Source: Streptomyces sp. NBC_01707
GTDB taxonomy: Bacteria; Actinomycetota; Actinomycetes; Streptomycetales; Streptomycetaceae
Assembly (NCBI RefSeq): GCF_041438805.1
Contig: NZ_CP109190.1
Span: forward strand, 3,906,001-3,970,000
Reading direction: 5' to 3'
Length of the DNA stretch: 64,000 nucleotides
Shown: piece by piece, positions 4,330 through 59,134 of the stretch
How positions within the stretch are numbered: position 1 is the stretch's first letter
Layout: each line of letters begins with the position of its first letter
The notes under the pieces: generated by a model
Told to the model about the DNA's origin: nothing
Databases searched by the model: none
What the model saw: only the letters and a program-made list of their open reading frames with translations
Made by a program: the position numbers and the translations under genes

Positions 4330-4359
4330 TCCGGCGCCGCTACGAGGCGTACGGGCTCC

Positions 4360-4914: not shown

Positions 4915-4932
4915 CGCCCCTGCGCACGTACG

Positions 4933-4978
4933 GCCGGTGGGCCACCCCCCTCGACGATGAGGGTGGCGGCCCACCGGC
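4933..4978. terminator. Bidirectional hairpin between CBS gene and catalase
   Basis: Inverted repeat GCCGGTGGGCC / GGCCCACCGGC, with a secondary ACCC/GGGT pairing inside the loop, between two convergent genes. Confidence 0.65.
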
Positions 4979-4995
4979 ACCGGCAGCCGTCCGTA

Positions 4996-6447: not shown

Positions 6448-6525
6448 GTGCGCCTCCTGCGTCATTCCTGCACATCCGTCATGTCCTGATGTCCGCACAG
6501 CCTGCCCCCTGCGTTATCGGTCTTG

Positions 6526-6553
6526 ATCCTACATTGGACTAAGTCCAAGTCAA
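6526..6553 (-). promoter_or_regulatory. Catalase promoter with embedded Fur/CatR-type operator
   Basis: On the minus strand, TTGACT (6548-6553) and TAGGAT (6526-6531) are separated by 16 nt, a good housekeeping-type promoter. The spacer holds a perfect 7-1-7 inverted repeat at 6534-6548 (TTGGACT-A-AGTCCAA), the classic architecture of Fur/PerR-family boxes. A bound repressor would cover the spacer and block polymerase. A second half-site-like GGTCCAA lies at 6559-6565. Confidence 0.8.
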
Positions 6554-6614
6554 CTAGAGGTCCAAAATCACACCCGTTCGGAACCAGGGCCGCCTCGCTG
6601 TTAGGCTTGCTCGT

Positions 6615-7034: not shown

Positions 7035-7043
7035 GACAAGACG

Positions 7044-7080
7044 AAGGGCCCGGTGCGAGTGACACCCGCACCGGGCCCTT
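7044..7080 (+). terminator. Terminator after catR
   Basis: Perfect 14-bp stem (AAGGGCCCGGTGCG) with a 9-nt loop, 9 nt after the catR stop, ending in CCCTT. The rest of the gap up to 7395 shows no convincing gene apart from the operator at 7318. Confidence 0.85.
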
Positions 7081-7317
7081 CCGCATTCCACCCACCCGGG
7101 ACCGGGCCTGCGCACCTCACCGGCCGTTCCGGGTGCGGAACCATTTCGGCGGACACCCGCAGCACCTGCCGGAGCACCTGCCGGAGGGGCGTGCGGCCGG
7201 CCGCACGCCCCTCCCTCACCGGATGCGACCGGACGGCGACAGCCAGGTAGGCCACTGAAGCCGCAGCCCCGGCGGTGGCCGCAGCCATCCACTCCACGCG
7301 CACCCCCTTCCTGAATC

Positions 7318-7330
7318 TGACGGACCGTCA
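7318..7330. promoter_or_regulatory. Palindromic operator upstream of ABC importer
   Basis: TGACGG-A-CCGTCA is a perfect 6-1-6 palindrome. Allowing one mismatch it extends to 9-1-9 (ATCTGACGG-A-CCGTCATAT). This is the form of many TetR-family operators in Streptomyces. It lies 66 nt before the importer ATPase start, in a 360-nt gap that otherwise holds only the catR terminator. The regulator is unknown. Confidence 0.5.
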
Positions 7331-7395
7331 TATTGTCGGCGGCGATCGCGTCCGCCCCGCGGCGGATCCACACCTCGACCGTGCGAGGAGAGACC

Positions 7396-8217
7396 GTGGG
7401 AGATCCGCACCCGACCACACCGTCACTCACCCCACCGCCCACACCCACCGCCCCCACGCTCCGGGCCCAGGCGCTCACCCGCACGTTCGGGCGCGGCGCC
7501 AAGGCGCTCACCGCCCTCGGCCCCGTCGATCTCGACATCGCGCCCGGCGAGTTCACCTGCATCGTCGGCCCCTCCGGCTGCGGCAAGTCCACCCTGCTGC
7601 GGATCGCCGCCGGGCTGCTCCGTCCCAGCACCGGCGAGCTGTCCATCCGCACGGCATCGCCCCGCCCGGCCGCCATGATCTTCCAGGACTACGGCATCTA
7701 CGACTGGAAGACCGTTCTCGCCAATGTCCGGTTCGGCCTCGACGTCCAGCGCGTACCGCGCAAGCAGGCCGATGCCAGGGCACGTGACTGGCTCGCCCGG
7801 ATGGGGCTCTCCGAGTTCGCCGGCGCCTATCCAGCTGCTCTCTCAGGCGGGATGCGGCAACGCGTCGCGATCGCCCGCGCCCTCGCCGTCGAACCCGAAA
7901 TCCTGCTGATGGACGAGCCGTTCGCGGCGCTCGACGCCCAACTGCGGACGATCCTCCAGGACGAGCTGCTCGACCTCACCCAGACCACCCGTACCACCAC
8001 GCTCTTCATCACCCACAGCCTGGAAGAGGCGATCGTCCTCGGTGACCGGGTACTGGTGATGTCCGCCAGGCCGGGCCGGATCATTGCCGAACGCCGGCCG
8101 CCGTTCGCCCGTCCGCGCACCGGCGACGTCCGTTCGGCACCCGAATTCACCGCGCTGAAGAGCGAGTTGTGGGAACTGCTGCGCGGCGAGGTCCGCAAGG
8201 AGGTGATCCCGGCATGA
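7396..8217 (+). CDS. ABC transporter ATPase, SsuB/TauB/NrtD type
   Basis: A 273-aa cytoplasmic ATPase of a nitrate/sulfonate/taurine-type importer. Motifs: Walker A GPSGCGKST (about residues 56-64), Q-loop in AMIFQDYGIYDW, signature LSGGMRQR (about 150-157), Walker B ILLMDEPFAALD, and the switch histidine in TLFITHSLEEAI. A Pro/Thr-rich N-terminal extension of about 20 residues precedes the domain. GTG 7396 has AGGAGA 5 nt upstream. The stop overlaps the permease start as ATGA, so the two are translationally coupled. The substrate may be an organosulfur or similar small molecule; this is not determined. Confidence 0.93.
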   Translation: MGDPHPTTPSLTPPPTPTAPTLRAQALTRTFGRGAKALTALGPVDLDIAPGEFTCIVGPSGCGKSTLLRIAAGLLRPSTGELSIRTASPRPAAMIFQDYGIYDWKTVLANVRFGLDVQRVPRKQADARARDWLARMGLSEFAGAYPAALSGGMRQRVAIARALAVEPEILLMDEPFAALDAQLRTILQDELLDLTQTTRTTTLFITHSLEEAIVLGDRVLVMSARPGRIIAERRPPFARPRTGDVRSAPEFTALKSELWELLRGEVRKEVIPA

Positions 8218-9086
8218 GCACCGCTGTGAAGGAAACACCCCAGGAGGGTGGAACCGTCCTGGTGCGCAGGCCGGGCCCGCGGGAGCTGCATCCCGTACGC
8301 ACCCATCGCAGGCGCCGCGCCCTGGAGCTGGCGCTCGCCGTCGCCGTGCCGCTGGTTCTCGTCCTGCTCTGGCAGCTGGCCGCCGCCCGGTCCTGGATCG
8401 ACGACCGCGTCTACCCTGCCCCGTCCACCATCCTTGCGGACGGCTGGGACCGGGCGGCCGACGGCGATCTGTGGCCGGATGTGTGGGCCACGCTCAAGCG
8501 GGTCCTCGGCGGCTATGCGATCGGGACCGTCGCCGGGTACGCGCTCGGCCTGCTGATGGGGTCGCTCTCGCTCGTACGCGCGGCGCTGGAGCCGTTGCTC
8601 GACGCCCTGTACGTCGTACCGAAGCTGGCCCTGCTGCCGGTCTTCCTCAACATGTTCGGCCTCGGCGAAGGGCCGCAGATCGCTCTGGTCGCCGCCACGG
8701 TCTTCTTCTTCGTCTGGATCTCCACGATGGCGGCCGTCCTCGCCGTCCCGATCGGTCACCGCGACGCCGGTCAGGTCTTCGGCGCCTCGCCCTGGCAGAT
8801 GTTCCGGCACGTGCTGCTGCCCGCCTCGCTGCCCGCGGTGCTGGTCGGCGCGCGGATCGCGGCGGGCGTGGCCGTCCTGGTCATCGTGGCGTCCGAGCAG
8901 ATCGCGGCGGCCGACGGGCTCGGCCATCTGATCTTCGACTCCCGGGCACTGTTCCGGAACGACGTGATGTTCGTCGGCATCGTCTGCGTGGCGGTCCTCG
9001 GCGTCGTCTTCTCCGAAGTGGTGCGGATCGCCGGACGGCTGCTCACCCCGTGGGCGCCGCGCGACCGCGGCCGCAACCAGTCGTGA
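8214..9086 (+). CDS. ABC transporter permease, SsuC/TauC type
   Basis: A 290-aa membrane permease of the BPD_transp_1 family. A basic N-terminus (HRRRRALELALAVAVPLVLV) leads into the first helix, followed by about five more segments. The EAA-type loop lies around IGHRDAGQVFGASPWQMFRH. ATG 8214 overlaps the ATPase stop by 4 nt and has an excellent AAGGAGGTGATC ribosome binding site. It lies between ATPase and binding-protein genes, giving a three-gene importer. Confidence 0.93.
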   Translation: MSTAVKETPQEGGTVLVRRPGPRELHPVRTHRRRRALELALAVAVPLVLVLLWQLAAARSWIDDRVYPAPSTILADGWDRAADGDLWPDVWATLKRVLGGYAIGTVAGYALGLLMGSLSLVRAALEPLLDALYVVPKLALLPVFLNMFGLGEGPQIALVAATVFFFVWISTMAAVLAVPIGHRDAGQVFGASPWQMFRHVLLPASLPAVLVGARIAAGVAVLVIVASEQIAAADGLGHLIFDSRALFRNDVMFVGIVCVAVLGVVFSEVVRIAGRLLTPWAPRDRGRNQS

Positions 9087-9130
9087 ACGGCACCCCATCG
9101 GCTCCACCGAGTTCTTCGTACGGAGGCACT

Positions 9131-10276
9131 GTGCGCACACGTACCCCTCTCATCTGCACGCTGGCGCTCGTCACGACATCGCTGCTCGCCGCGGCGGGCT
9201 GCGCCAAGAACGATTCCGGCAGTGGCGGCGCCGATGTCGCGCCGCGCACCGTCAAGCCCGTCGCCGGCTGCGGCGCCGGCAGCTGGACCGACCCGGCCGA
9301 TCTGGCGGCCGACCGCACACCGGCCCGCTGCGACAAGGGCGCGCCCGCCCCTCGACCGCTGGCGAAGAAACGGAAGATCACCGTCGCCACCGGCACACTC
9401 AGTGCGGAGTACGTCGCCCCGCTCCAGGTCGCCGTGGCGAAGGGCGAGTTCACCAAGGAGGGCCTGGACGTCGAACTGAAGGTTCTTCCCACCCCGGACG
9501 CCTTGCCACTGCTCGCCAAGGGCGATGTCGACGCCCAGTGGGCAGCCCCCGAGGCGGCCGTGATGAACGGCATCAACGGCGGCTTCGACATCAAGTGGGT
9601 GGCAGGGAACTTCTCCCCCGATCCCACCTCCAAGAGCGGCCTCTGGGTGCGCCTCAAGGAGGGCGAGAGCGCCGAACACGTCGACATGGCGGGCCGCAGG
9701 ATGGGCACGATGATCGGCAAGGGCTCGGTCATCGCGTATCCGATGGACACCTCGCTGCAGAAACACGGCGGCGGCCTCGACAAGATCAGTTTCCAGCAGC
9801 TCGGCTCCGCGGACGTACTGACCGCCCTGCAGAACGGCGGCGTGGACTCCGCCTGGCTGCTCGACCCGGTCTGGCGCAAGGTGGACGGCGACAAGCGGTA
9901 CGCGTTCCTGGGCGGCCAGCCGGTCGGCGAACCGCTCGGCGGTCTGCTCTTCGGCCCGACGCTGCTGACCGAGGACCCGGATGCGGGTGTCGCCTTTCTC
10001 CGCGCCTACATCCGGACGGTGAACACCTATTTCGCCGGGGACTACAAGTCCGATCCCGCCTTCGTGACGGAGCTTGCGAAGCTGATGAAGATCGACGAGG
10101 CGACGCTGCGGTCGACGCCGTCCATGCGGATGGACTGGGAGATCCGGAAGGGCACGACGGACCGGCTGCAGCAGGCGTACAGCGACGCGGGCGTCTCGGA
10201 GGGGAAGCCGCCGGTACCGGAGGAGAAGGCCGTCGACCGGGCGATGTACGGGGAGGCGGTGGGCCACAGGCTCTGA
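9131..10276 (+). CDS. Substrate-binding lipoprotein, NMT1/SsuA type
   Basis: A 381-aa lipoprotein with a lipobox ending LLAAAGC (cysteine about residue 24) and a Cys-containing linker. The mature domain opens KRKITVATGTLSAEYVAPLQ and continues VAKGEFTKEGLDVELK, the typical NMT1/SsuA fold start in which the ligand is gripped between two lobes. GTG 9131 is chosen because CGGAGG lies 4 nt upstream. It follows the permease after 44 nt and completes the importer. A hairpin at 10316-10349 follows. Candidate ligands are sulfonates, nitrate-like anions or pyrimidine precursors; none is proven by sequence. Confidence 0.9.
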   Translation: MRTRTPLICTLALVTTSLLAAAGCAKNDSGSGGADVAPRTVKPVAGCGAGSWTDPADLAADRTPARCDKGAPAPRPLAKKRKITVATGTLSAEYVAPLQVAVAKGEFTKEGLDVELKVLPTPDALPLLAKGDVDAQWAAPEAAVMNGINGGFDIKWVAGNFSPDPTSKSGLWVRLKEGESAEHVDMAGRRMGTMIGKGSVIAYPMDTSLQKHGGGLDKISFQQLGSADVLTALQNGGVDSAWLLDPVWRKVDGDKRYAFLGGQPVGEPLGGLLFGPTLLTEDPDAGVAFLRAYIRTVNTYFAGDYKSDPAFVTELAKLMKIDEATLRSTPSMRMDWEIRKGTTDRLQQAYSDAGVSEGKPPVPEEKAVDRAMYGEAVGHRL

Positions 10277-10315
10277 CGCGGCGCCCGAACGGCATGCGCA
10301 GAAGGCGGCATGCAC

Positions 10316-10349
10316 AGAAGGCCGGATCCTCGAAAGGATCCGGCCTTCT
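10316..10349. terminator. Hairpin between importer and tRNA gene
   Basis: A 15-bp perfect stem (AGAAGGCCGGATCCT) with a CGAA tetraloop. It can terminate the plus-strand importer and the minus-strand tRNA, whose 3' end is 9 nt away. The same GGATCC-CGAA core recurs after the second tRNA copy. Confidence 0.85.
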
Positions 10350-10357
10350 GTCTTCAG

Positions 10358-10431
10358 TAGCGGGGACAGGATTTGAACCTGCGACCTCTGGGTTATGAGC
10401 CCAGCGAGCTACCGAGCTGCTCCACCCCGCG
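10358..10431 (-). tRNA. tRNA-fMet (initiator), anticodon CAU, copy 1
   Basis: A 74-nt cloverleaf with anticodon CAU at 10395-10397. Initiator hallmarks: position 1 C faces U at 72, so the first acceptor pair is unformed, and three G:C pairs (GGG/CCC) flank the anticodon loop. The T-loop GGTTCAAATCC is present. The 3' CCA is not encoded. It is identical to the copy at 12856-12929. Confidence 0.95.
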
Positions 10432-10502
10432 TCGTGAACACAACATTACGTGACGCCCTGGACCAGCGCAAATCTGTTCCTGCCGACTGCGGGAAGCGCG
10501 GT

Positions 10503-10529
10503 GTCGCGGGGGCCCGCCGCCCCCGCGAC
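10503..10529 (-). terminator. Terminator after the Sel1-repeat gene
   Basis: An 11-bp stem (GTCGCGGGGGC) with a 5-nt loop, 25 nt past the stop codon on the minus strand. Confidence 0.65.
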
Positions 10530-10554
10530 GCCCGTGCCGCACCCCCGCACACCG

Positions 10555-12642
10555 CTATGCGGTCAGCTCCTGGTGCAGGGCCTCACGGAGCCTGGCGGCC
10601 CGCTCGGCGACCTCCGCCGGGCCCAGCTCGACCGCACGCGCGCACCAGCGCTGCCCCTCGGTGAGCTCGCCGCGGCGGGCGGCGAGCAGGGCCAGCCGCA
10701 GCGCGGCCCGGCCGTGGCCGTCGTTCGCTGCGCGGCTCCACCACAGGGCGGCCTCACGCTCGCTGCCCTCACGGGCGAGGAGCAGCCCCAGGTTGAAGGC
10801 ACCGTTGCGGCTGCCCGACTCGGCGGCCTCGCGGTACCAGCGCGCGGCGCTCTCCAGGTCACCGCGGGAGGCGGCGAGCATGCCGACCCGCACCTGGGCG
10901 CGGCGGTGCCCCTGCTCGGCGGCCCGCTCGTACCAGGCCTCGCACTCGGTCTTCTCCGGCATCGGCTCACCGAGCCCGGGCGGTCCCGGCGGCGGCTGGC
11001 GCGAGTCCAGCACGCCGGCCAGCCGGAAGGCCGCCTCGGCGCTGCCGCCGCCCGCGGCGCAGCGCAGATGGCGTTCGGCCTCCTGCTCCTCACCGTGGTG
11101 CAGCAGGGCCATGCCGACCTGCAGCGCGGCCTCGGTGTGCCCGGCGGCCGCAGCCCTCTCGTACCAGGTCAGAGCCACCCGGTCCTCGTCGCGCCCGGCG
11201 TGCAGAATGCCGAGGTTGAAGGCGGCGTCGACGCTGCCCGCCTCGGCGGCCTTGGAGAACCAGGGCTGCGCACCGGTCGCGTCGCCCGCCTGGAGCAGCA
11301 GCACGGCCAGGGCGTTGGCGGCCTCGCGGTGGCCGGCGTAGGCGGCACGTCGGTACCACTGCTCGGCCTGCGGTGTACGGTCCTGGGCGGCGCAGAGCAG
11401 CCCCAGGTTGTACGCGCCGTTGACGTCGCCCGCGTCCATGGCGGCGCGGTACCAGCGCTCGGCGGTCTGCTGCTCGCCACGGGCGGCGTGCAGGGCGCCC
11501 AGGGCATTGGCCGCGTTGCCGTCGCCCTCCTGGGCGGCGCGCAGCCACCACACGGCCGCGCTCTCCTCGTCCCCCGCGTCGCGCAGCAGGAAGCCGAGCG
11601 CACAGGCTGCCCGGGCCTCGCCGCTCTTGGCGGAGGTGAGGTACCAGCGGCCGGCCTCCTTGAGCTCACCGCGCTGCTCCAGAATGGCGCCGAGGTGCAG
11701 CGCGGCACGTCGGTGACCGCGCGCTGCGGCCTGCCGGTACCACTGCTCGGCCTCGCCGATGCGCCCGGCGGCGGGGCCCGCCACCGGTCCGTCGTCCTTG
11801 CGCCCGTCCGCGCGGCCCGCCTTGCACACACCGGTCCCGGTTCCGGTGTCGTCGGCGGCCGCGCTGCGCGCAGGCAGGCCCGTCCCCAGCCCGGCGTCCG
11901 CCGCCGGGCGGCCGAACGCGTCGTGCGGGTCGTCGGCGGCCTTGCTCTCCAGGGTCCGCGCCAGGCGGTACGCGGCCTCTCGGTGCCCCTGCTCGGCGGC
12001 GGCGCGCAGCCAGCGCTCGGCGCCGACGTCGCTGCGGTGTTCCAGCAGGTCGGCGAGGGCGTACGCGCCCAGCGCGTGGCCCTGCTCGGCGGACTGGCGC
12101 AGCCAGTACTCGGCGCCCGGCTCGTCGCCACGCTCGCGGTAGTGGCGTCCCAGCGCGTGGGCCGCGGCGGCGGAACCGGCGACGGCGGCGATACGCCACC
12201 AGCCGGCCGCCTCGTCGGCATAGCCGCGCTGGTGGAGGAGGACACCCAGGTTGTTGGCGGCGGCCCGGTCGCCGTCGGCGGTGGCCGCACGCAGATAGGG
12301 TTCGGCGCCGTTGAGGTCGCCTCGGCGCAGCAGAAGCGCACCGAGGACGCTCATCGACGCGGTGTCTCCGGCGTCGGCGGCGCGACGGTGCCGTACCTCG
12401 CTCTCGGCGGTCTCCGTGCTCTCGGTGCTCTCGATGCCCTCGGTGCTCTCGGCGTTGCGTGACGGTTCCGGATCCCCGGCGGTCCCATCGTTCTCGAAGA
12501 CCTGGACAGCCCGGACAGCCTCGGCGTCATCCGTGACATGGGCAGCAAAAGCCGCATCTGCCATGTTTTCCATCTCATGGACGCGCCGCTGCACAAACCG
12601 CCCTGTCTCCAACAGAGTTGCCCTGTCCCCCATAAATACCAT
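10555..12642 (-). CDS. Sel1/TPR-repeat scaffold protein
   Basis: A 695-aa soluble protein. After a charged N-terminus with a Glu/Ser/Thr-rich stretch (about residues 60-85), nearly the whole length is about sixteen Sel1-like repeats of roughly 35 residues. Each centres on a W-Y/W-x-x-A-A-x-x-G-H/S pattern, for example WYRQAAARGH, WYERAAAAGH and WYREAAESGS. Such alpha-solenoids mediate protein-protein contacts; no catalytic domain or signal peptide is visible. The repeats are interrupted at about residues 220-275 and 560-580 by low-complexity inserts. ATG 12642 has AGGTGG 7 nt upstream. The gene sits alone between two identical initiator tRNA genes. Confidence 0.88.
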   Translation of the reverse strand: MVFMGDRATLLETGRFVQRRVHEMENMADAAFAAHVTDDAEAVRAVQVFENDGTAGDPEPSRNAESTEGIESTESTETAESEVRHRRAADAGDTASMSVLGALLLRRGDLNGAEPYLRAATADGDRAAANNLGVLLHQRGYADEAAGWWRIAAVAGSAAAAHALGRHYRERGDEPGAEYWLRQSAEQGHALGAYALADLLEHRSDVGAERWLRAAAEQGHREAAYRLARTLESKAADDPHDAFGRPAADAGLGTGLPARSAAADDTGTGTGVCKAGRADGRKDDGPVAGPAAGRIGEAEQWYRQAAARGHRRAALHLGAILEQRGELKEAGRWYLTSAKSGEARAACALGFLLRDAGDEESAAVWWLRAAQEGDGNAANALGALHAARGEQQTAERWYRAAMDAGDVNGAYNLGLLCAAQDRTPQAEQWYRRAAYAGHREAANALAVLLLQAGDATGAQPWFSKAAEAGSVDAAFNLGILHAGRDEDRVALTWYERAAAAGHTEAALQVGMALLHHGEEQEAERHLRCAAGGGSAEAAFRLAGVLDSRQPPPGPPGLGEPMPEKTECEAWYERAAEQGHRRAQVRVGMLAASRGDLESAARWYREAAESGSRNGAFNLGLLLAREGSEREAALWWSRAANDGHGRAALRLALLAARRGELTEGQRWCARAVELGPAEVAERAARLREALHQELTA

Positions 12643-48879: not shown

Positions 48880-50511
48880 ATGAGGACCCCCCCTTCCCTG
48901 CGCGCCGCGGCCCTCGCCGCAACCGTGACCGCTCTGCTACCCCTCGCCGCCTGTTCGGACGGCGGCGACGGTGCGGCCGACACGGACCGCACCCGGAACT
49001 CTCCGCACGCGGCGAACGCCGCCGACACGTCGATGCCGGCCGACCTGACTTCCCAGAAACTGGAGTGGAAGCCCTGCCCCGCCCCATCCGCGGCACAGGG
49101 TGGCGGCGCCGCCCCCACCCCGCTCCCCGGTGACACCGCCTGGCAGTGCTCCTCCATGAAGGTCCCGCTCGACTACGCGAAGCCGGACGGCGACACGATC
49201 GAACTGGCGCTCATCCGCGCCAAGGCCATCGACCAGAGCAAACGAATCGGCTCACTCATCCTCAACTTCGGCGGACCCGGCGCTTCCGGCGTCGCCACGC
49301 TGCCTCAGTTCGGCACCACGTACGACAAGCTCCGGGCCCGCTACGACCTGGTGAGCTTCGATCCACGCGGGGTCGGCCGCAGCGAGGGCGTGAAGTGCGA
49401 GAACGACAAGCAGCTCGACGCGCGCTTCGAGAGCGACCTCACCCCGGACGACGCCGCCGAGGTGCAGGCCTACGTCAACGAGCAGAAGAAGTATGTGGCG
49501 TCATGCAAGAAGAACTCCGGTTCCGAACTCCCCTACGTCGGCACCACCAACGCCGCACGCGACATCAATCTGATGCACCAGGTGCTCGGTGACGAGAAGC
49601 TGCACTACCTCGGCTTCTCCTACGGCACCGAACTGGGCGGCGTCTACGCCCACTTGTTCCCGAAGAGCGTCGGCAGAATGGTGCTCGACGCGGTCGTCGA
49701 CCCCACCGAGGACACCGAACAGTCCTCCCTCGGCCAGGCGCAGGGCTTCCAGCTGGCTCTGGACAACTTCGCCAAGGACTGCGTGAAACGCGGCGCCGCC
49801 TGCAAGCTCCCCGGCTCCACCGGGAAGGAGGTCGAGCTGTGGATCGCCGAACTACTCCAGCGGTTGGAGAAGACGCCGATCACAGGGCTCGGCACGCGGA
49901 AGCTGACACAGTCCCAGGCCATCACCGGGATCGCGGCCTCCCTCTACTCACGGCAGACCTGGCCGTTGCTGGAGGAGGGGCTCGACGAGGCGGACGGCGG
50001 CAACGGCGCGCTGCTCCTGGCCCTCGCCGACTCGCTGAACGGCCGCGCCGACGACGGTCGTTACGACAACTCCACGGCCGCCAACACGGCCATCAACTGC
50101 GTCGACTCCAAGCAGCGGTTCAGCGTCGACGAGACGAAGGCGAAGCTCCCGGCGTTCCAGAAGGCCTCGCCGATCTTCGGTGACTATCTGGGCTGGGGTC
50201 TGCTGGCATGCACCGGCTGGCCGGCGAAGGGCGCCTGGGACACCCCGGACGTCAGCGCTCCCGGCGCGCCCCCCATCCTCGTCATCGGCAACACCGGAGA
50301 CCCGGCGACCCCGTACGAGGGCGCGAAGGCGATGGTCGACGCACTGGGCAAGGGTGTCGGGGTGGAGCTGACGTACGAGGGTCAGGGACACGGCGCGTAC
50401 AACACCGGCGACGCCTGTGTGCAGAAGGCCGTGGGCGACTATCTGTTGGACGGCAAGGTTCCGGTGGCCGGTACTGTCTGTCGCTTAGAGGCTGACGGCG
50501 GCGACAAGTAG
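48880..50511 (+). CDS. Tripeptidyl aminopeptidase-like lipoprotein (alpha/beta hydrolase) 1
   Basis: A 543-aa exported serine hydrolase of the Streptomyces Tap/SlpD/SlpE group that releases N-terminal tripeptides. The lipobox ends LAAC (cysteine about residue 25). The catalytic triad is visible: serine in GFSYGTELGG (about residues 247-256), aspartate in VIGNTGDPATP, histidine in YEGQGHGAYN. LNFGGPGASGV forms the oxyanion-hole region. ATG 48880 lies about 100 nt after the membrane-protein stop, so it probably has its own promoter; the ribosome binding site GGAGC is weak. It is paralogous to the next gene, from which it is separated by 47 nt. Confidence 0.9.
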   Translation: MRTPPSLRAAALAATVTALLPLAACSDGGDGAADTDRTRNSPHAANAADTSMPADLTSQKLEWKPCPAPSAAQGGGAAPTPLPGDTAWQCSSMKVPLDYAKPDGDTIELALIRAKAIDQSKRIGSLILNFGGPGASGVATLPQFGTTYDKLRARYDLVSFDPRGVGRSEGVKCENDKQLDARFESDLTPDDAAEVQAYVNEQKKYVASCKKNSGSELPYVGTTNAARDINLMHQVLGDEKLHYLGFSYGTELGGVYAHLFPKSVGRMVLDAVVDPTEDTEQSSLGQAQGFQLALDNFAKDCVKRGAACKLPGSTGKEVELWIAELLQRLEKTPITGLGTRKLTQSQAITGIAASLYSRQTWPLLEEGLDEADGGNGALLLALADSLNGRADDGRYDNSTAANTAINCVDSKQRFSVDETKAKLPAFQKASPIFGDYLGWGLLACTGWPAKGAWDTPDVSAPGAPPILVIGNTGDPATPYEGAKAMVDALGKGVGVELTYEGQGHGAYNTGDACVQKAVGDYLLDGKVPVAGTVCRLEADGGDK

Positions 50512-50558: not shown

Positions 50559-52154
50559 GTGGTTCACCATGCTCGCGCCGGGGCGCTGGCCGCTGCCGCA
50601 CTGCTGCTGACGGGAGTGCTCGCGGGTTGTGACGGGGGCACGGACGCGAAGGCGGACGGCAAGGCGGGCCGCGGTGCGGCCTCCTCGTCCACCGGGGCGT
50701 CCGGGGCCGCGTCCGACGGTTCGGACGGGAAGCCGGGCGCGCTGCCCGCCCTGCCCACGGTCCTCACCTCCCAGCGGCCGGTCTGGAACCGCTGCAAGGC
50801 AGTCGGGGGCGAGAGCGCGCCGGCGTCCGGCTGGAGATGCGCGACGGTCAAGGTGCCGTTGAACTACGCCGAACCGGCAGGCGACACGATCGGGATCGCG
50901 CTGATCCGCAAGGAGGCCCGGGACAAGGGCCGTCGGCTCGGCTCGATGCTGTTCAACTTCGGCGGCCCTGGCGGCTCGGGCGTCTCGATGCTGCCGCGCG
51001 CCGCCGGGTCGTACGGGAAACTCAACACCCGCTACGACCTGGTGAGTTTCGATCCGCGCGGGGTCGCGGGGAGCTCCGGGGTGAAGTGCCGCACCGACCG
51101 GGAGCAGGAGGACGCCAACCGGGAGATCGATCTGACTCCGGACACGGCGGCGGAGGAGGCGGCGTTCATCAAGGACGGCGCGGACTTCGGTGCCGGCTGC
51201 GAGCGCAGCTCGGGCAAGGTCCTCCCGTACGTCGGTACGACGAACGCCGCGCGGGACATGGATCTGATCCGCGAGGTGCTCGGCGACAAGAAGCTCACGT
51301 ACTTCGGCATCTCGTACGGTACGGAGCTCGGCGGTACGTACGCGCATCTCTACCCGAAGAACGTGGGACGCACGGTCCTCGACGCGGTCGTCGACCCGAC
51401 CGCCGACACGATCGGGCACGCCCGCAACCAGGCGACCGGCTTCCAGCGGGCGCTGGAGAACTACCTCAAGGACCGTGGCCAGGACCCGAAGGCGGGCACC
51501 CGGCGCATCGCCCGGCTGCTGGAGCGGATCGACGGGAAGCCGCTGCCGACCGGCTCGGGCCGCCCGCTCAACGAGACACTGGCGATCACCGGCATCGTGA
51601 CGCCGCTCTACTCCAAGAGCAGTTGGCCCGTTCTGACGCAGGCGCTGGACGAGGCCGAGAACCAGGGCACCGGCAATCTCCTCCTCCAGCTCGCCGACTC
51701 GTACAACGGCCGTGACGAGAACGGGCACTACGACACCCAGAGCCACTCGCAGCGCGCCATCTCCTGCGCGGACAGCAAGCTCCGGCCGACGGCGGGCGAC
51801 GCGAAGGCGCTGCTGCCCGAATTCCGGAAGCTGTCCCCGGTCTTCGGCCCGTTCCTGGCGTGGGACACGGCCGGCTGGTGTGCCGACTGGCCGGTGAAGG
51901 GTGAGCACGACACCCCGGAGGCGAGTGCCCCGGGCGCCGGTCCGATCCTGGTCGTCGGGACGACCGGTGACCCGGCGACGCCCTACGAGGGTGCACAGAA
52001 GATGGCGGACGAGCTGGGCAAGGGCGTCGGCATCATGCTCACCAACAAGGGCGAGGGACACGGCGCCTACGGCGAGAGCGCGTGTGTGACGTCGACCGTG
52101 GACGCGTACTTCCTGGACGGGAAGGTTCCGGCGAACGGCAGGACCTGCTCGTAG
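50559..52154 (+). CDS. Tripeptidyl aminopeptidase-like lipoprotein (alpha/beta hydrolase) 2
   Basis: A 531-aa paralogue of the preceding gene. The lipobox is LAGC (cysteine about residue 25), followed by a Gly/Ala/Ser-rich linker. Active-site regions are LFNFGGPGGSGVS, the serine in GISYGTELGG, the aspartate in VVGTTGDPATP and the histidine in NKGEGHGAYG. GTG 50559 has GGGGGAGGG 9 nt upstream. It follows the first copy by 47 nt on the same strand, probably as an operon made by tandem duplication. A hairpin follows at 52177. Confidence 0.9.
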   Translation: MVHHARAGALAAAALLLTGVLAGCDGGTDAKADGKAGRGAASSSTGASGAASDGSDGKPGALPALPTVLTSQRPVWNRCKAVGGESAPASGWRCATVKVPLNYAEPAGDTIGIALIRKEARDKGRRLGSMLFNFGGPGGSGVSMLPRAAGSYGKLNTRYDLVSFDPRGVAGSSGVKCRTDREQEDANREIDLTPDTAAEEAAFIKDGADFGAGCERSSGKVLPYVGTTNAARDMDLIREVLGDKKLTYFGISYGTELGGTYAHLYPKNVGRTVLDAVVDPTADTIGHARNQATGFQRALENYLKDRGQDPKAGTRRIARLLERIDGKPLPTGSGRPLNETLAITGIVTPLYSKSSWPVLTQALDEAENQGTGNLLLQLADSYNGRDENGHYDTQSHSQRAISCADSKLRPTAGDAKALLPEFRKLSPVFGPFLAWDTAGWCADWPVKGEHDTPEASAPGAGPILVVGTTGDPATPYEGAQKMADELGKGVGIMLTNKGEGHGAYGESACVTSTVDAYFLDGKVPANGRTCS

Positions 52155-52250: not shown

Positions 52251-53429
52251 TCAGTACACCGGCTTCTCGGGCTCGATCTGGTTGACCCAGCCGATCACGC
52301 CGCCGCCGACATGCACCGCGTCGGCGAAGCCCGCCGACTTGAGGACCGCGAGGACCTCGGCGCTGCGGACACCGGTCTTGCAGTGCAGGACGATGCGCTT
52401 GTCCTGCGGGAGGTCCTGCAGGGCGTTGCCCATCAGGAACTCGTTCTTCGGGATCAGCTTCGCACCGGGGATCGAGACGATCTCGTACTCGTTCGGCTCG
52501 CGGACGTCGATGATCTCGATCTTCTCGTCGGCGTCGATCCACTCCTTGAGCTGCTTCGGAGTGATCGTGGAGCCGAGCGCCGCCTCCTGGGCCTCCTCGG
52601 ACACGACGCCGCAGAAGGCCTCGTAGTCGATGAGCTCGGTGACGGTCGGGTTCTCGCCGCAGACCGCGCAGTCCGGGTCCTTGCGGACCTTGACCTGGCG
52701 GTACTGCATCTCCAGGGCGTCGTAGATCATCAGTCGGCCGACCAGCGGGTCACCGATGCCGGCGAGCAGCTTGATGGCCTCGTTGACCTGGATGGAGCCG
52801 ATGGACGCGCAGAGCACGCCCAGCACGCCGCCCTCGGCGCAGGACGGAACCATGCCGGGGGGCGGCGGCTCCGGGTAGAGGCAGCGGTAGCAGGGACCGT
52901 GCTCCGACCAGAAGACGGACGCCTGTCCGTCGAAGCGGTAGATCGAACCCCATACGTACGGCTTGTTCAGCAGCACCGCGGCGTCGTTGACGAGATAGCG
53001 GGTGGCGAAGTTGTCCGTGCCGTCCACGATCAGGTCGTACTGGGCGAAGATCTCCATCACGTTCTCGGCTTCGAGCCGCTCTTCGTGAAGGACGACATTC
53101 ACATACGGGTTGATGCCCAGGACCGAGTCCTTGGCGGACTGGGCCTTGGACCGGCCGATGTCGGCCTGGCTGTGGATGATCTGGCGCTGCAGGTTCGACT
53201 CGTCGACCTCGTCGAACTCCACGATGCCGAGCGTGCCGACACCGGCCGCGGCCAGGTACATCAGGGCCGGCGAGCCGAGACCGCCGGCGCCCACACAGAG
53301 CACCTTCGCGTTCTTCAGCCGCTTCTGTCCGTCCATCCCGACATCCGGGATGATCAGGTGGCGGGAGTACCTGCGGACCTCGTCGACGGTGAGCTCAGCA
53401 GCTGGCTCGACCAGGGGTGGCAGCGACAC
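52251..53429 (-). CDS. moeZ: MoeZ: adenylyltransferase/sulfurtransferase
   Basis: A 392-aa two-domain protein that adenylates and thiocarboxylates sulfur-carrier proteins (MoaD, ThiS or CysO type). The MoeB/ThiF domain has the nucleotide loop VLCVGAGGLGSPALMYLAAA (about residues 43-62), EFDEVDESNLQRQ, DGTDNFATRYL, and zinc pairs CYRC and CAVC. The C-terminal rhodanese domain (about 285-392) has its persulfide-forming cysteine in HCKTGVRS. GTG 53429 has GAGG 5 nt upstream. A SigR-type promoter lies at 53495-53520. It is likely to serve moaE-dependent cofactor synthesis and other carriers. The homologue Rv3206c shares the neighbourhood. Confidence 0.94.
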   Translation of the reverse strand: MSLPPLVEPAAELTVDEVRRYSRHLIIPDVGMDGQKRLKNAKVLCVGAGGLGSPALMYLAAAGVGTLGIVEFDEVDESNLQRQIIHSQADIGRSKAQSAKDSVLGINPYVNVVLHEERLEAENVMEIFAQYDLIVDGTDNFATRYLVNDAAVLLNKPYVWGSIYRFDGQASVFWSEHGPCYRCLYPEPPPPGMVPSCAEGGVLGVLCASIGSIQVNEAIKLLAGIGDPLVGRLMIYDALEMQYRQVKVRKDPDCAVCGENPTVTELIDYEAFCGVVSEEAQEAALGSTITPKQLKEWIDADEKIEIIDVREPNEYEIVSIPGAKLIPKNEFLMGNALQDLPQDKRIVLHCKTGVRSAEVLAVLKSAGFADAVHVGGGVIGWVNQIEPEKPVY

Positions 53430-53494: not shown

Positions 53495-53520
53495 AACACT
53501 GCCACGCTCCTCCTCATTCC
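53495..53520 (-). promoter_or_regulatory. SigR-type promoter of moeZ
   Basis: On the minus strand, GGAAT (53516-53520), 18 nt, GTT (53495-53497): an exact SigR consensus, about 70 nt upstream of the moeZ start. Its -35 overlaps the last codons of the spherulin-type gene. I recall a MoeB-family gene being reported as a SigR target in S. coelicolor, which would support this. Confidence 0.7.
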
Positions 53521-54368
53521 GAGATACCCGGTCCGATCCGCGAGACGATTTCGTCCCAGTACCCGGGCAGCGCCGCGAATGGATCGGTTTGTCCACCATG
53601 ATCCGTGCGAATCGTGCGGTCGGTGAAGAAGATCGTCCCGGCCCCCTGCCAGCGGGCGATCCGCATGGCCTCTTCGAGGTGGGTGCGCGGGACGCCGTGC
53701 ACGAAGTGCGCGAAGCGGTCCGGCGGGTAGTCCGCGGTCCACTCCGCCACCTGCGACCAGCGGTAGTCGGTCCATGCCCCGGAGAAGGTGACCAGCTGGT
53801 CGGCCGTCTCGGCGTAGCCGGGATACGGGTGGGTCCCGTGCCCCAGCACGAGCAGCCCGCTCCCGATCTCTTCGTCCCCGCTGTCCGCGCGGTCCTCGCC
53901 CTCCTCCAGAAGCGCGGCGAGTGTGCTGGTGAGGCGGCGGACCGCCGGAAGGTCGGCGCGCTCGGCCGGACACCGGTCGAGATAGAAGCCGTCGACGCGG
54001 TACCAGTCGAGGAAGGACTGCGCGTCGGCGATCAGCTCGCCGAACGGCCGGTTGCCGAAGGTCAGATCGAGATGGCCCAGCAGCAGGCCGCCGCCCGCCC
54101 GCACGGCGTCCTGCGCAGCCCCGTCGTGCACGGCCCGTTCACGGGCGTTGCGGAGCCGGCCCGCCGCCTCCAGACAGTGCGGGTCGGGCCGGGCGCCGGG
54201 GCCGTTGTCGATGTTGAGGACCGCCCAGTGCAGCGGGGTGCCGGAGCGGGTCAGCTCGGCCCACTCGGTGGGCGCGAGCAGCGGGTGCGCGTACCCGGGG
54301 ACGCCGAAGCCGAGCTGCTCGGCGCCACCGGTCCGGCGGGCGGTACCGGCACGGGTCAGATGCGGCAT
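53514..54368 (-). CDS. Spherulin-4-family protein (GH135-like)
   Basis: A 284-aa TIM-barrel-type protein of the spherulation-specific family 4. Landmarks: LGFGVPGYAHPLLAPTEW (about residues 19-36), HWAVLNIDNGPGARPDP, LGHLDLTFGNRPFGEL, VDGFYLDRCPAERADLP (about 128-144) and TIFFTDRT. Fungal Sph3 of this family hydrolyses galactosaminogalactan with an Asp-Glu pair in the DGIFFDE-type strand; here that position reads LDR, so the second acid is missing. No signal peptide. ATG 54368 has GGAGG 4 nt upstream and overlaps the epimerase end by 13 nt, so it is the last gene of the PelF-type cluster. Active hydrolase status is doubtful. Confidence 0.8.
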   Translation of the reverse strand: MPHLTRAGTARRTGGAEQLGFGVPGYAHPLLAPTEWAELTRSGTPLHWAVLNIDNGPGARPDPHCLEAAGRLRNARERAVHDGAAQDAVRAGGGLLLGHLDLTFGNRPFGELIADAQSFLDWYRVDGFYLDRCPAERADLPAVRRLTSTLAALLEEGEDRADSGDEEIGSGLLVLGHGTHPYPGYAETADQLVTFSGAWTDYRWSQVAEWTADYPPDRFAHFVHGVPRTHLEEAMRIARWQGAGTIFFTDRTIRTDHGGQTDPFAALPGYWDEIVSRIGPGISE

Positions 54369-55321
54369 GCCGCCTCCATCCAGATGTCGGCGAGGGACTC
54401 CTCCAGATTGATCCGGGGGCGCCAGCCGAGCCGGTCGCGGGCGGTGCGGACGTCCGCCTGCTGCCAGGCCCCGCAGCCGTCCGGGTACGGGGACGGGGTC
54501 GCCGAGAGGTGTTCGATGACGGACTCGGCGGAGGTGCGCGGGGCGCCGATGGGGAGCCGGGCGGGGGGTGTGTCCAGCTCGTGCAGGGCGCCCGGGTAAC
54601 CCGCGACCTTGGCGAGCACGGCGGCCGCGTCGCGCAGCCGCACGGCCCGGCCGGTACCGATGTTGACGACGCCCTGCGCGGCGGAGAGCGACGCGGCGTG
54701 CACGGCGCGGGCGACATCCCGTACGTCGACGAAGTCGCGCTGCACGCCGAGGCCACTGAGTTTCAGCTCGCCGTCGCCCGACTGCATGGCACGGCGCATC
54801 GCCTCGGCGAGCCGGCCCAGCGGTGAGCCGGCCGGGGTGCCGGGGCCGACCGGCGAGAAGACCCGCAGCACGACCGCGTCGAGGCCTGAGCCGAGGACGA
54901 GCTCGGTGGCGGCGAGCTTGGAGACGCCGTACGGGCCGCCGGGGCGCGGCACGGCGTCCTCCGCGGTCGACGAGCCGGGCTGCGAGGGTCCGTACTCCGA
55001 GGAGCAGCCGACCTGGACGAGGCGGGCGCTGCAGCCGCTGCGGCGCATCGCCTCGCAGACGGTGGCGACGGCGACGGTGTTGTGCCGGGTCAGATCGCGG
55101 GCGCCGCCGCGGGTGGCGCCCGCGCAGTTGACGACGACCCCGGGGTGGACGGCGTCCAGGAAGCGGGTGAGTGCTCCTGGGCTGCCACCGGCCAGGTCGA
55201 ACCGTACGTCGGCGTCGTCGCCGCGGCCGAGCGCGGTCAGGTGCACGGCGGGGTCGGCGAGCAGCCGGTCGGCCACGAACCGGCCGAGGAATCCATTGGC
55301 TCCGAGCAGCAGAACCCTCAT
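54356..55321 (-). CDS. NAD-dependent sugar-nucleotide epimerase/dehydratase
   Basis: A 321-aa extended SDR of the UDP-glucose 4-epimerase-like family. The N-terminal LLLGANGFLGRFVADRLL has the GxxGxxG dinucleotide motif. VVNCAGATRG, then QVGCSSEYGPSQPG with the catalytic serine, and the YGVSK catalytic Tyr/Lys (about residues 131-135) follow. RVFSPVGPGTPAG and QRDFVDVRDVARAV are substrate-side motifs. ATG 55321 has AAGGGGG 6 nt upstream. It lies 145 nt after the membrane-protein gene and overlaps the spherulin-type gene. It probably supplies an epimerised sugar nucleotide to the PelF-type transferase; the exact sugar is unknown. Confidence 0.87.
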   Translation of the reverse strand: MRVLLLGANGFLGRFVADRLLADPAVHLTALGRGDDADVRFDLAGGSPGALTRFLDAVHPGVVVNCAGATRGGARDLTRHNTVAVATVCEAMRRSGCSARLVQVGCSSEYGPSQPGSSTAEDAVPRPGGPYGVSKLAATELVLGSGLDAVVLRVFSPVGPGTPAGSPLGRLAEAMRRAMQSGDGELKLSGLGVQRDFVDVRDVARAVHAASLSAAQGVVNIGTGRAVRLRDAAAVLAKVAGYPGALHELDTPPARLPIGAPRTSAESVIEHLSATPSPYPDGCGAWQQADVRTARDRLGWRPRINLEESLADIWMEAACRI

Positions 55322-55466
55322 CGTGTGCCCCCTTCGTGCCGACGGCGGGCTGCCGGTGCGGGGGATTGGGGGGTCATGTCCGGTGTCTCCTTGGGGAGGT
55401 TGCGAGCGTTACGGGACAGGCACCCGCGGCGTCGGCTCCGCGGGGTTCGTGCGGGGTCGTGCGGGG

Positions 55467-57245
55467 TTACGGGCGGGTGTGGGCGGAGGCCCTGGAGAGG
55501 GCGACGGTGGCGTGGATCAGCAGCCCGAGCGCGGCTGCGCCGCAGGCGATGGCGGGTACGGCGCCGGTGCCGGCCGCCGCTACGACGGTGTAGACGGGCT
55601 GGGCGGCGAAGTGCAGGCCGGGCAGCCGTCCGGCCAGGACCAGGGCGGGCGCGACCGCTTCTACGGCGCAGGCTGCGGCGAGTCCGGTGGTGGCGGGCTC
55701 GGGGAAGCCATGGACGGTCAGCAGCCGGGCCAGCAGGAGCAGGACTCCGAGGGCGGCGGCCGCCATCGGGGCGCCGCCGCCTCCGTATCCGAGGTCGGCG
55801 AGGTGGAGCAGCCCGATGAGGACGCACAGGAAGAGCCCGACGGTCCCGAAGAGCAGGGGGCGCACACCTGCTGCGAACTCCTCCAGCGCGCGGCTGCCGG
55901 CGAGTTTGCGCTGTGCGTGCACGGAGAAGAGGTGCGCGCACCAGGCGGCCGGGGCGACGGCGAGCGCGAGCCCCAGGAGGGGTGCGGGGGTGATCGCCCA
56001 GGGCCCTTCGGGACCGCCGCTGAGGACCTGGTCCAGAAGGGCTTCGCCGTACAGGACGTACCCGAGAAGCCAGTACCCGTAGACCGCGGACGCGGCCGAC
56101 GCGCGCCCTTCGGGGGCGTGCAGGGGGCCGCTCCGCAGGCACAGGCCGAGGCCGAGGAGCGCGACCAGCGCCCCGACAAGGGCCACGGTGAGCCGCGCAC
56201 CGCCACCGAGCACCCCGTCGGTGAGTTTCAGGACGACGGCGGTCGCGGTGCAGGCGGCGCCGGGGAGCAGCGCGCGGAGCGACCAGGCGGCGCGCGTCTC
56301 GATGTCGCGCATCGGTGCGTGCGCCGTCCGACCGGGCTCGCCCGCGACGGCGGGTACCCGCGCGTAGAGCTCCTCGGCGAGCGAGAAGACGTCGCGGTGC
56401 CGGTAGCGGGCGGCGGTGCGGTCGGTGACCCCGTGGGCTTCGAGCCCGGCGGCGATCTCCAGGGGATCGACCGCGCGTTCGCAGAGCTCGCGGTGCCGGT
56501 GCATGAGCGTTTTCACGGGGTCGACGGGCCCACGCCGGGCCGCGCTGGGCTTGCGCGCGGAGACGGCGGGGGTGTGTGCGATCTCGGGAGCGCGGGAGAC
56601 GTGGTCGGGCTCGGCGTGGGCCGTGGCCTTGACCTCAGCCGCTTTCGGCTCGGGCTCCGGCCCGTCGGTGCGCAGGCGGTCCTGGGTACCGGTCGCCTGA
56701 GGCGGGTGGACGGATTCGGCGGGCGGGGGTGGGTTCCGATCCGGGTCCGGGGCCCCGTGCGGATCTGCGGCCGGATCCGGCTCCGCGGTCCAAGAATGGT
56801 CTGCTTCCGGACTGCCGGCGGTGTCCGGCGCCTGGGGCGTCGGCGGGTCCGCCTCCGAGGCGTGCGGGCCTTCGCTCCGGTCCGAACTCCCGTCCCGCCC
56901 CATGAAATGCCCCATGACCGACGCCGGCCACCCCTTTCCGGAGAGGCCGGGCACCACCGACGTACGCCGCTTCCCGGTGAGGCCCGGCACCACCGGTGCC
57001 CGCCCCGGCCCGGATGCGGGCAGGCCCCGAGCCGGTGCGGAGATCTCCGCGCCCCGTGTCTCGGAGACCAGTGCCTCCGGGTGGGAGTCCCAGCTCGTGT
57101 CGGGCATCGGTGTGCCCGAGGCATCAGGTGCCTCGGTCGGGCGGCCGCCCATGGGGGTTCCTCCGTGTTCTTCGCCAAGTCCGCGGGGCCGGTCGACGGG
57201 TGTACCCCGCCGGCCCGCCCTCGTGTCCGTCTCCTGCTCACACAT
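55467..57245 (-). CDS. Polytopic membrane protein with long disordered N-terminus
   Basis: A 592-aa protein. The first 230 or so residues are Pro/Asp/Glu-rich and disordered. A helical cytosolic segment (about 240-305) includes TLMHRHRELCERAVDPLEIA, GVTDRTAARYRHRDVFSLAE. The last 260 residues contain roughly eight hydrophobic helices (for example LTVALVGALVALLGLGLCL and LLFGTVGLFLCVLIGLLHLA). It resembles no named transporter I can identify with certainty, but its place after a PelF-type transferase suggests a polymer-export or synthase-membrane partner (PelG- or PelE-like role). ATG 57245 overlaps the upstream stop by 8 nt, so translation is coupled. Confidence 0.82.
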   Translation of the reverse strand: MCEQETDTRAGRRGTPVDRPRGLGEEHGGTPMGGRPTEAPDASGTPMPDTSWDSHPEALVSETRGAEISAPARGLPASGPGRAPVVPGLTGKRRTSVVPGLSGKGWPASVMGHFMGRDGSSDRSEGPHASEADPPTPQAPDTAGSPEADHSWTAEPDPAADPHGAPDPDRNPPPPAESVHPPQATGTQDRLRTDGPEPEPKAAEVKATAHAEPDHVSRAPEIAHTPAVSARKPSAARRGPVDPVKTLMHRHRELCERAVDPLEIAAGLEAHGVTDRTAARYRHRDVFSLAEELYARVPAVAGEPGRTAHAPMRDIETRAAWSLRALLPGAACTATAVVLKLTDGVLGGGARLTVALVGALVALLGLGLCLRSGPLHAPEGRASAASAVYGYWLLGYVLYGEALLDQVLSGGPEGPWAITPAPLLGLALAVAPAAWCAHLFSVHAQRKLAGSRALEEFAAGVRPLLFGTVGLFLCVLIGLLHLADLGYGGGGAPMAAAALGVLLLLARLLTVHGFPEPATTGLAAACAVEAVAPALVLAGRLPGLHFAAQPVYTVVAAAGTGAVPAIACGAAALGLLIHATVALSRASAHTRP

Positions 57246-59025
57246 CGCCGTCCCCCGTTCGCCGGGCGCCCGCGCACACGCCCTCGGCGGCCCAGCTCGG
57301 GGTGCGCCCGGTGGTGAGCGGGACGGGGGCCGTCCAGTTGCCCAGCACATGGGCCTCCGGCGGTGTCGCGAACGGGCGTGGGGCGCCGTCCGCGTTCAGC
57401 GCGTGCGTGTCTCTGCGCACCGGAGCGTGCGAGATCAGCTCCAGGTAAATGCCGCGAAATGCCGCGAGGTTCTGTTCGACGGTGAAGAGTTCGAGTGCCC
57501 GGGCCCGAGCCGCCGCGCCGAGGCGTGCACGGCGCTCGGGGTCGCGCAGCAGCGTGATGCAAGCGTCGGCGAGCGCCCGGGGGTTGCGCGGGGGCACCAC
57601 CAAGCCTGTACCGCCGATGACTTCGACGACGGCGCCGACGTCGGTCGACACCGTGGCTCGTCCGCAGAACATCGCCTCGACCAGGCTGATCGGGAAGCCT
57701 TCGACCACGCTGGAGAGGACCACGATCCCGCCCGCCGCATACGCCTCCGCCAGGTCCGGCAGTTCGGCGTCGCCGATGTCCTCGAAGGAGACCGGGTTGT
57801 CACCGATGGCGTGCGCGTCGGCGGCCTCGTCGGGGAAGAGCTGGGCGGCGAGCGCCCGGCACTGGGCGAGGTATGTGGCGCCTTCCGCGCACGGCGCCGG
57901 TGCGCCGATGATGCGCAGCCGCGCGTCCGGTTCGGCCTTCCGCACCTCGACGAATGCGTGCAGCAGCGCGACCAGGTCCTTGGAGGGTTCGATCCTGCCG
58001 ACCCAGACCAGCGTGTCGGGTCCGCCGTCGTCGCCGCTCTCCCCGAGCGCGGCGAAGCGGGCCGCCTCCATCCCGGGGTAGACGGTGCGCACCTTGGCCC
58101 GGTCGGCGCCGCACCGTTCCTGCCAGCGGCGGGCATGCGTATTGCCCGGGGTGATGAGCGCGGCCTGCCGGTACACCTCGGTGGCGAGCCGTCCGAGGAA
58201 ATTGGCGAGGAGGGCGCGTACCGGCGCACTCAGCGGCGTGCCGGTCGCGGCGAGGTAGTGCGCCCGCAGCTGCACACCGTGCTCGGTGACCAGCAGCGGC
58301 ACCCCGAAGAAGCGTTTGGCCAGCAGACCGGGCAGAGCGGCGGCTCCGCCGGACGTGGCGTGGCAGAGGTCGACCGCGCCGAGGCTCTCCTCGTCGTACC
58401 AGTCCAGGGAGAGCGGACGCAGGACCCGGTCCAGCTCCGCAGCGAAGGCGAGGAGGTCAGGAACGGTCGCGGTCTGGACGGTGCGACCGGTGCCGGGGGC
58501 GCGACAGGCGGCTTCGAGTACGCGGACGGCGGTTTCGGAGCGGAGCGCCGCGGGTAATCCGCCGTGTTCACGGGCCAGTTCGGCGAGTCCGTACAGCCCG
58601 TCCGTGAACTGCGCGTCGGCAAAGTCGGAGGCACCCGCGCGCCGTACGCCGTCCGCGTCGTCGCGCGTCGTGTCCGCCGTGCAGATGGATGTCGCGAGCG
58701 CCGTGAAGTGCGCCGTGAAGCGGCGCCGTTCGCGACGTCCGTACGATCGCCCGCCCCCGCCGGTCAGCAGCCGGGCGAGCAGCCCCTTGGGGGCGTGGCC
58801 GCCCAGGATGTCCTCGTCGGCCATCCACAGCGGCGCCGTCCGCACCCGGCTGACCTGGGGCGGGAGCTGTACCCAGCCCTGCGCCTCCTGCTCGGCGGAG
58901 CGGCTGAGCGCGTAGAGATCGAACTCGTGCGTCAGTCCGCGCACCAGACGGTCGCACCAGAGTCTGGACTCACCGGTCGCATACGGATAACCACCGTCGG
59001 TGAGGAGTCCGATCCGCACGAGCAC
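57238..59025 (-). CDS. PelF-type GT4 glycosyltransferase (DUF3492)
   Basis: A cytoplasmic glycosyltransferase of about 595 aa. The N-terminus RIGLLTDGGYPYATGESRLW matches the DUF3492 opening of PelF-like enzymes. The GT-B C-terminal domain has ITPGNTHARRWQERCG, LVWVGRIEPSKDLVALLHAF (about residues 370-390) and the EX7E motif in SSVVEGFPISLVEAMFCGRA (about 460-480). PelF polymerises UDP-sugar into the Pel exopolysaccharide in other bacteria. GTG 59025 has GGGAG 9 nt upstream; GTG 59019 is also plausible. It is the first gene of a four-gene minus-strand set with the membrane protein, epimerase and spherulin-type genes. Confidence 0.88.
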   Translation of the reverse strand: MLVRIGLLTDGGYPYATGESRLWCDRLVRGLTHEFDLYALSRSAEQEAQGWVQLPPQVSRVRTAPLWMADEDILGGHAPKGLLARLLTGGGGRSYGRRERRRFTAHFTALATSICTADTTRDDADGVRRAGASDFADAQFTDGLYGLAELAREHGGLPAALRSETAVRVLEAACRAPGTGRTVQTATVPDLLAFAAELDRVLRPLSLDWYDEESLGAVDLCHATSGGAAALPGLLAKRFFGVPLLVTEHGVQLRAHYLAATGTPLSAPVRALLANFLGRLATEVYRQAALITPGNTHARRWQERCGADRAKVRTVYPGMEAARFAALGESGDDGGPDTLVWVGRIEPSKDLVALLHAFVEVRKAEPDARLRIIGAPAPCAEGATYLAQCRALAAQLFPDEAADAHAIGDNPVSFEDIGDAELPDLAEAYAAGGIVVLSSVVEGFPISLVEAMFCGRATVSTDVGAVVEVIGGTGLVVPPRNPRALADACITLLRDPERRARLGAAARARALELFTVEQNLAAFRGIYLELISHAPVRRDTHALNADGAPRPFATPPEAHVLGNWTAPVPLTTGRTPSWAAEGVCAGARRTGDGDV

Positions 59026-59098: not shown

Positions 59099-59134
59099 CG
59101 GTGGCGCGATGGACGGTTGTCCATCGCGCCACCG
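59099..59134 (-). terminator. Terminator between peptide importer and PelF-type cluster
   Basis: A 16-bp perfect stem (CGGTGGCGCGATGGAC) with a GGTT loop, 76 nt past the ATPase stop. It isolates the importer from the PelF-type operon, whose promoter should lie in 59026-59098. Confidence 0.8.

Follow-up and report, generated by a model that had tools for sequence, protein, structure and literature searches.

What product is made by the four adjacent genes that occupy positions 53514 to 59025 of the window (the whole stretch of 64,000 nucleotides analysed here from contig NZ_CP109190.1 of Streptomyces sp. NBC_01707, positions 3,906,001 to 3,970,000), and how is this locus related to known exopolysaccharide operons? 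The original prediction was a cationic amino-sugar polymer system resembling the bacterial Pel and fungal galactosaminogalactan (GAG) pathways. The open reading frames of the four minus-strand genes were found where it placed them, and are listed below; class B designates this form of the locus.

57238..59025, minus strand: glycosyltransferase of the DUF3492/GT4 type, PelF-like, class B (GT); likely the SCO5174 orthologue by gene order
55467..57152, minus strand: membrane protein (MEM); likely the SCO5175 orthologue by gene order
54356..55321, minus strand: extended short-chain dehydrogenase/reductase (SDR), a sugar-nucleotide reductase or epimerase; likely the SCO5176 orthologue by gene order
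53514..54368, minus strand: spherulin-4 protein with the GH135 fold, probable pseudo-glycosidase (SPH); likely the SCO5177 orthologue by gene order

The cationic polymer does not follow here, given the loss of the catalytic Glu in SPH, the lack of a deacetylase in the cluster, and an SDR whose 4-epimerase function is unsupported. Without a deacetylase in the cluster, nothing requires the product to be cationic, and because SPH has lost its cutting residue and no charge-adding enzyme lies alongside, it is probably a different surface sugar, linked to development. Our results lead us to consider, with roughly even confidence, that the locus is a reduced relative of a Pel/GAG-like operon, with a PelF-like synthase, a putative MOP-fold flippase and a pseudo-glycosidase, serving a developmental glycan of the hyphal surface.

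The identification of the first gene as a PelF-type DUF3492 transferase was borne out, as GT matches PF11997 (DUF3492) with 87.3-88.1 bits (cut-off 23.3), carries GT4 domains, and barely passes the NCBIfam PelF model (104.8 bits, cut-off 100). Its EX7E motif reads EGFPISLVE, and the motif is present in 13 of 14 class B and in 9 of 9 class A rows, class A being defined by a strong DUF3492 match (at least 150 bits); class B is much weaker in this model. The sole DUF3492 match in the window's genome is the class B one. Regarding the gene boundaries, the 13-nt overlap of SDR and SPH is correct. The predicted 8-nt overlap of GT and MEM is doubtful because it needs an ATG at 57245 and the database-listed MEM protein of the window (561 amino acids) begins at 57152; the latter start, also backed by several relatives and a GGAGG motif, is favoured and leaves a gap of 85 nt.

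Class B is a core Streptomyces locus. DUF3492 is found in 96 of 101 genomes of the genus, and a profile of the class B GT reaches at least 457 bits in 128 of 132, the next band starting from 432; these genome counts separate the classes by bit score only, which fails outside the genus, where a class A locus (L133) scores 464 bits and a class B locus (L144) 450.8. Four genomes of the genus (G135, G140, G186 and G187) gave no class B-level match with this profile. The best match in 15 genomes of other families in the order was 9.2e-21, and in a draw across the taxonomic class 19 of 197 genomes passed 1e-40, comprising 16 of the same genus and three others with class A-like loci. Class B also occurs in other genera of the Streptomycetaceae, with synteny confirmed in the fetched loci. 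The following gene is the constant downstream neighbour of SPH in class B, and we make no claim that it belongs to the glycan system.

52251..53429, minus strand: MoeZ/MoeB-type ThiF-rhodanese gene (ThiF 281.7 bits, Rhodanese 59.1 bits); likely SCO5178

As had been expected, the four genes co-occur widely across Streptomyces. Once seven class A and three truncated loci had been set aside from the 78 fetched for synteny, GT and MoeZ lay on the same strand in all 68 remaining class B loci, accompanied by SDR in 68, MEM in 67 and SPH in 62; the presence of GT or SDR is presupposed in these counts, as the loci were fetched via matches to those genes. Among 80 named Streptomyces loci obtained via SDR, 71 hold all five genes and six are cut by contig ends, and no intact SPH is found in three (L240, L257 and L258). 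A chance neighbourhood was rejected, since SDR accompanies GT and MoeZ on one strand in every locus holding both genes (68/68, fetched by GT matches). Spherulin-4 remnants were observed between SDR and MoeZ at 7025-7267 of L240 and 7095-7157 of L258, which suggests recent gene loss.

SPH belongs to the spherulin-4 family, as proposed (PF12138, 61.9 bits, cut-off 30.2), and matches Sph3 (GH135) in both sequence and fold. In the alignment to 5c5g, the catalytic Glu222 of Sph3 is replaced by a serine.

53781..53783, minus strand: codon of SPH Ser196, at the position of Sph3 catalytic Glu222 (alignment to 5c5g chain position 172)

The Sph3 residues were counted along 5c5g (chain positions 116 for Asp and 172 for Glu), where an offset of 50 gives Asp166 and Glu222. 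The original Sph3 paper reportedly gives Asp166. The available portion of PMC12054363 prints Glu222 together with Asp196, so that its Asp differs from the one derived from 5c5g. The Glu is present in all 17 class A rows and in one stand-alone spherulin, in none of the 77 aligned named copies, and in only one of 63 class B copies; the other 62 have S, A, R, C, N, L, Q or H at this position, with no common replacement. The catalytic Asp of the FFDE segment is kept in the window (Asp131) and in 50 of the 63 class B copies, while several copies have neither acid and a single one (L147, also an early-branching member of class B in the GT tree) keeps both. No hydrophobic segment was found in the window's SPH, making an anchored or secreted Sph3-like hydrolase unlikely, and the GAG-type hydrolase that had been envisaged is not supported by these residues. 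SPH is under purifying selection, as judged from the ratio of non-synonymous to synonymous substitutions (dN/dS), and we regard it as probably a pseudo-glycosidase on the basis of its sequence. Spherulins (PF12138) were detected in at least 71 of 101 genomes of the genus, a lower bound because the genome search misses the window's SPH, which scores 61.9 bits as a protein.

The ancestry of class B can be approached through class A. All 11 class A loci fetched from Streptomyces (L082-L092) combine GT with genes for a large deacetylase-like protein, a membrane protein and a spherulin-4 protein, and six add a LegB-like 4,6-dehydratase, a nucleotidyltransferase and an SDR; this gene content represents a biased sample, as the loci were mostly chosen from DUF3492 matches with a spherulin match nearby. 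A further locus fetched among them (L081) holds a stand-alone spherulin without GT, and no MoeZ was found in class A loci. The one class A GT scanned reaches 172.3 bits with the PelF model. The deacetylase-like protein has no solved relative by sequence and matches the Agd3 deacetylase model weakly, in four of five scanned members (best 9.2e-07); the CE18 label rests on weak Pfam matches, the L089 protein reaching 26.9 bits where the cut-off is 27.6. A branch in the GT tree (98) sets class B apart, with L137 next to it (97), and a clade of their own (99) unites the remaining 14 streptomycete class A copies. In both the GT and SPH trees, class B has its closest relative in L137, a Streptomycetaceae locus with a full operon and an intact spherulin (matches start from 3537 to 12605) that is possibly an intermediate form. 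The support at the class B branch point is weak in the SDR tree (71); both the GT and SDR trees are quick reconstructions with an assumed root, including 26 of the 68 class B loci and the window. The proposed relationship is thereby upheld as regards ancestry: class B shares its origin with a fuller operon that contains a putative Agd3-like deacetylase, and in which GT is more strongly PelF-like and the spherulin-4 has both acids. In the simplest reading of these sequences, a full operon would have arrived next to MoeZ, the genes for the deacetylase, the dehydratase and the nucleotidyltransferase would have been lost from it, and the spherulin would have decayed functionally afterwards.

The two remaining genes are more difficult to assign. 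MEM matches no Pfam or NCBIfam family and displays a long N-terminus, a small helical cytoplasmic domain and approximately nine or ten transmembrane helices, with a possible MOP-like fold in a model lacking the long N-terminus. The closest structures include MurJ and WzxE, which are flippases of lipid-linked sugars; a Foldseek search with MEM returned nothing significant. None of the 22 sequences aligned for MEM matched the PelG model PF16933 at E<=1, nor did anything in the window's genome, with Thermotoga maritima positive as control. An ordinary Pel operon at this place was rejected, as there is neither a PelG match nor a deacetylase in the cluster. We take PelG to be a member of the MOP superfamily, to which MEM may also belong, and the modelled fold may leave a functional analogy between them open. 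As for SDR, the idea of a UDP-sugar epimerase holds only at the family level (PF01370, 128.5 bits): its nearest solved chain is a 4-keto-reductase, the GDP-6-deoxy-D-lyxo-4-hexulose reductase 2pk3 (1.4e-20), with epimerases lower in the list, and no NCBIfam equivalog is reached at its cut-off. SDR is far more constrained than its operon partners (dN/dS 0.03-0.15 against 17 relatives) and MoeZ is similarly strict (0.06-0.15), in simple Nei-Gojobori estimates on 17 of the 80 named loci, picked to span identity.

Published data connect the locus to development. SCO5178 is annotated as moeB, a putative sulfurylase, in the accessible part of PMC4340878; from this and the conserved gene order we infer that SCO5174-SCO5177 of S. 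coelicolor should be the four genes, the order and annotations being the same in the portions available of these sources. SCO5174 appears under the names transferase and putative glycosyltransferase (PMC6585502, PMC3610822). In the part of PMC3610822 considered, the table of the 53 genes with the largest changes from the first to the second mycelium includes SCO5175, SCO5174 and SCO5177, all induced in the second, with log2 values at 24/48/72 h of 2.4/3.8/3.5, 2.2/3.5/3.5 and 2.6/3.3/3.0, respectively; SCO5176 is absent from the table holding the other three. SCO5174 insertion mutants make less actinorhodin, according to the portion consulted of PMC6585502. Within the same portions, neither article mentions a Pel/GAG link, the spherulin name or the lost active site for these genes.

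Taken together, a mechanism can be proposed in which the cytoplasmic PelF-like GT4 enzyme would extend a glycan from a nucleotide sugar that SDR helps to supply, MEM would dock GT through its cytoplasmic helical domain, and its putative MOP fold would carry the glycan, or a lipid-linked form, across the membrane. SPH, having kept the GH135 barrel, could act in the cytoplasm as a non-catalytic subunit for glycan binding or assembly. The gene set, induced in the second (differentiating) mycelium, would feed a glycan of the hyphal surface. The observations made here concern gene content, synteny, the fold of SPH, its residue loss, selection and the relationship to class A, to which the literature adds the induction and the actinorhodin effect of the SCO5174 insertions; the SCO mapping, the nature of the sugar, its form as polymer or short glycan, docking, flipping, and the place and role of the pseudo-enzyme are proposals. 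A bolder version, which we advance only tentatively, is that the Streptomycetaceae remodelled a synthase operon of the GAG/Pel type as core machinery for a developmental glycan: the deacetylase would have been dropped, and a cytoplasmic spherulin-4 hydrolase would have become a pseudo-enzyme, binding or guiding the growing chain between the PelF-like transferase and a shortened MOP flippase. If true, synthase-dependent polysaccharide systems would gain a new architecture, and differentiating hyphae a new surface glycan. The favoured reading itself would assign a definite function, open to testing, to an uncharacterised gene set that is strongly induced in development, extend the surface polymers known from hyphae by one glycan, and illustrate how an enzyme hydrolysing polysaccharides turned into a conserved, non-catalytic partner. 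Since about half of the surveyed Streptomyces (49 of 101) also carry class A DUF3492 matches, both classes can be compared in one organism.

Other explanations must be weighed against this one. Instead of a free PelF-type polymer, the GT-MEM-SDR core could make a short glycan that is linked to a lipid or attached to the wall (resembling teichoic or teichuronic acids, or a glycolipid) and is flipped by the MOP-like MEM; the resemblance of MEM to MurJ and WzxE and the fact that none of the four genes matches a deacetylase or is PelD/PelE-like point in this direction, whereas the PelF likeness and an origin shared with operons holding a deacetylase-like gene and an intact spherulin-4 point away from it, so that we find this alternative rather doubtful, if the strongest. 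A cationic amino-sugar polymer resembling Pel or GAG, with its deacetylating enzymes encoded elsewhere, is clearly unlikely: the PelF model is reached, if barely, and class A relatives accompany Agd3-like proteins, yet SPH has lost its catalytic Glu, SDR is nearer to a 4-keto-reductase, PF16933 is unmatched despite its control, and CE18 was found in the window's genome neither by PF25115 nor by a class A protein query, both searches lacking a positive control.

That SPH is still an enzyme, using other residues or a different substrate, is very improbable; Asp131, the Asp in most class B copies, purifying selection and the two acids of L147 would fit it, but the varied replacements of Glu in 62 of 63 copies and the loss of both acids in several do not. 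Least probable is that the four genes are mere neighbours of MoeZ with separate functions. Loss of SPH alone does indeed occur, the ABC transporter upstream varies as a neighbour (31 of 80 named Streptomyces loci), and SCO5176 is not listed with the other three in the available part of PMC3610822; however, three of the four genes are induced in that same source, and class A loci, none of which yielded a MoeZ, also group the GT, MEM and SPH families (with SDR in 6/11).

Upstream of GT lies a conserved inverted repeat, preceded by a conserved GAAC...GTTACG stretch.

59100..59133, minus strand: inverted repeat of 15 bp with an AACC loop, upstream of GT

Its core, GGAC-loop-GTCC, was found in 96 of 105 upstream regions, five of the nine misses being class A loci; the loop is AACC in 94 of the 96, and at least 13 of 15 arm positions are paired in 79, four of these positions being required by the search itself. 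No Rfam match was obtained up to E 1. A regulon sharing the repeat was rejected, as the genome has four exact GGACAACCGTCC sites, with long arms at the GT site only. Beyond MoeZ, two adjacent similar alpha/beta hydrolase-like genes lie on the plus strand (48880-50511 and 50559-52154), the second, which was the one scanned, having a TAP-like domain.

Among known systems, the Gram-positive pelDEADAFG operon (Whitfield et al., 2020, PMC7112168, in the part available) resembles class B in combining a PelF-like GT4 containing DUF3492 with a polytopic partner. In contrast, PF16933 fails on MEM, and PelD, PelE and PelA have no match among the four class B genes, nor among five scanned neighbours, the rest of the genome not being searched; CE18 is likewise unmatched among these nine genes. 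Compared with the fungal galactosaminogalactan cluster (Uge3, Gtb3, Sph3, Ega3, Agd3), SPH has lost the active-site Glu and has no hydrophobic segment, the four genes match no deacetylase or GH114, and the function of SDR is uncertain. Open-licence PMC text contained nothing joining PelF and spherulin, or DUF3492, with Streptomyces, and nothing on a pseudoenzyme glycoside hydrolase in Streptomyces exopolysaccharide; spherulin and galactosamine appeared together only in PMC7229062. The available portion of that article (Bamford et al., 2020) describes actinobacterial agd3 (CE18) operons that, like class B, have a cytoplasmic glycosyltransferase and a multi-spanning membrane protein, and sometimes spherulin-4. 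Class A loci resemble these operons and, as a kind, are not new, the bacterial agd3 operons being already published (PMC7229062). Class B differs from them, so far as that portion describes them, in having no agd3-like gene, in a spherulin without the catalytic Glu, and in being a near-universal Streptomyces locus adjoining MoeZ.
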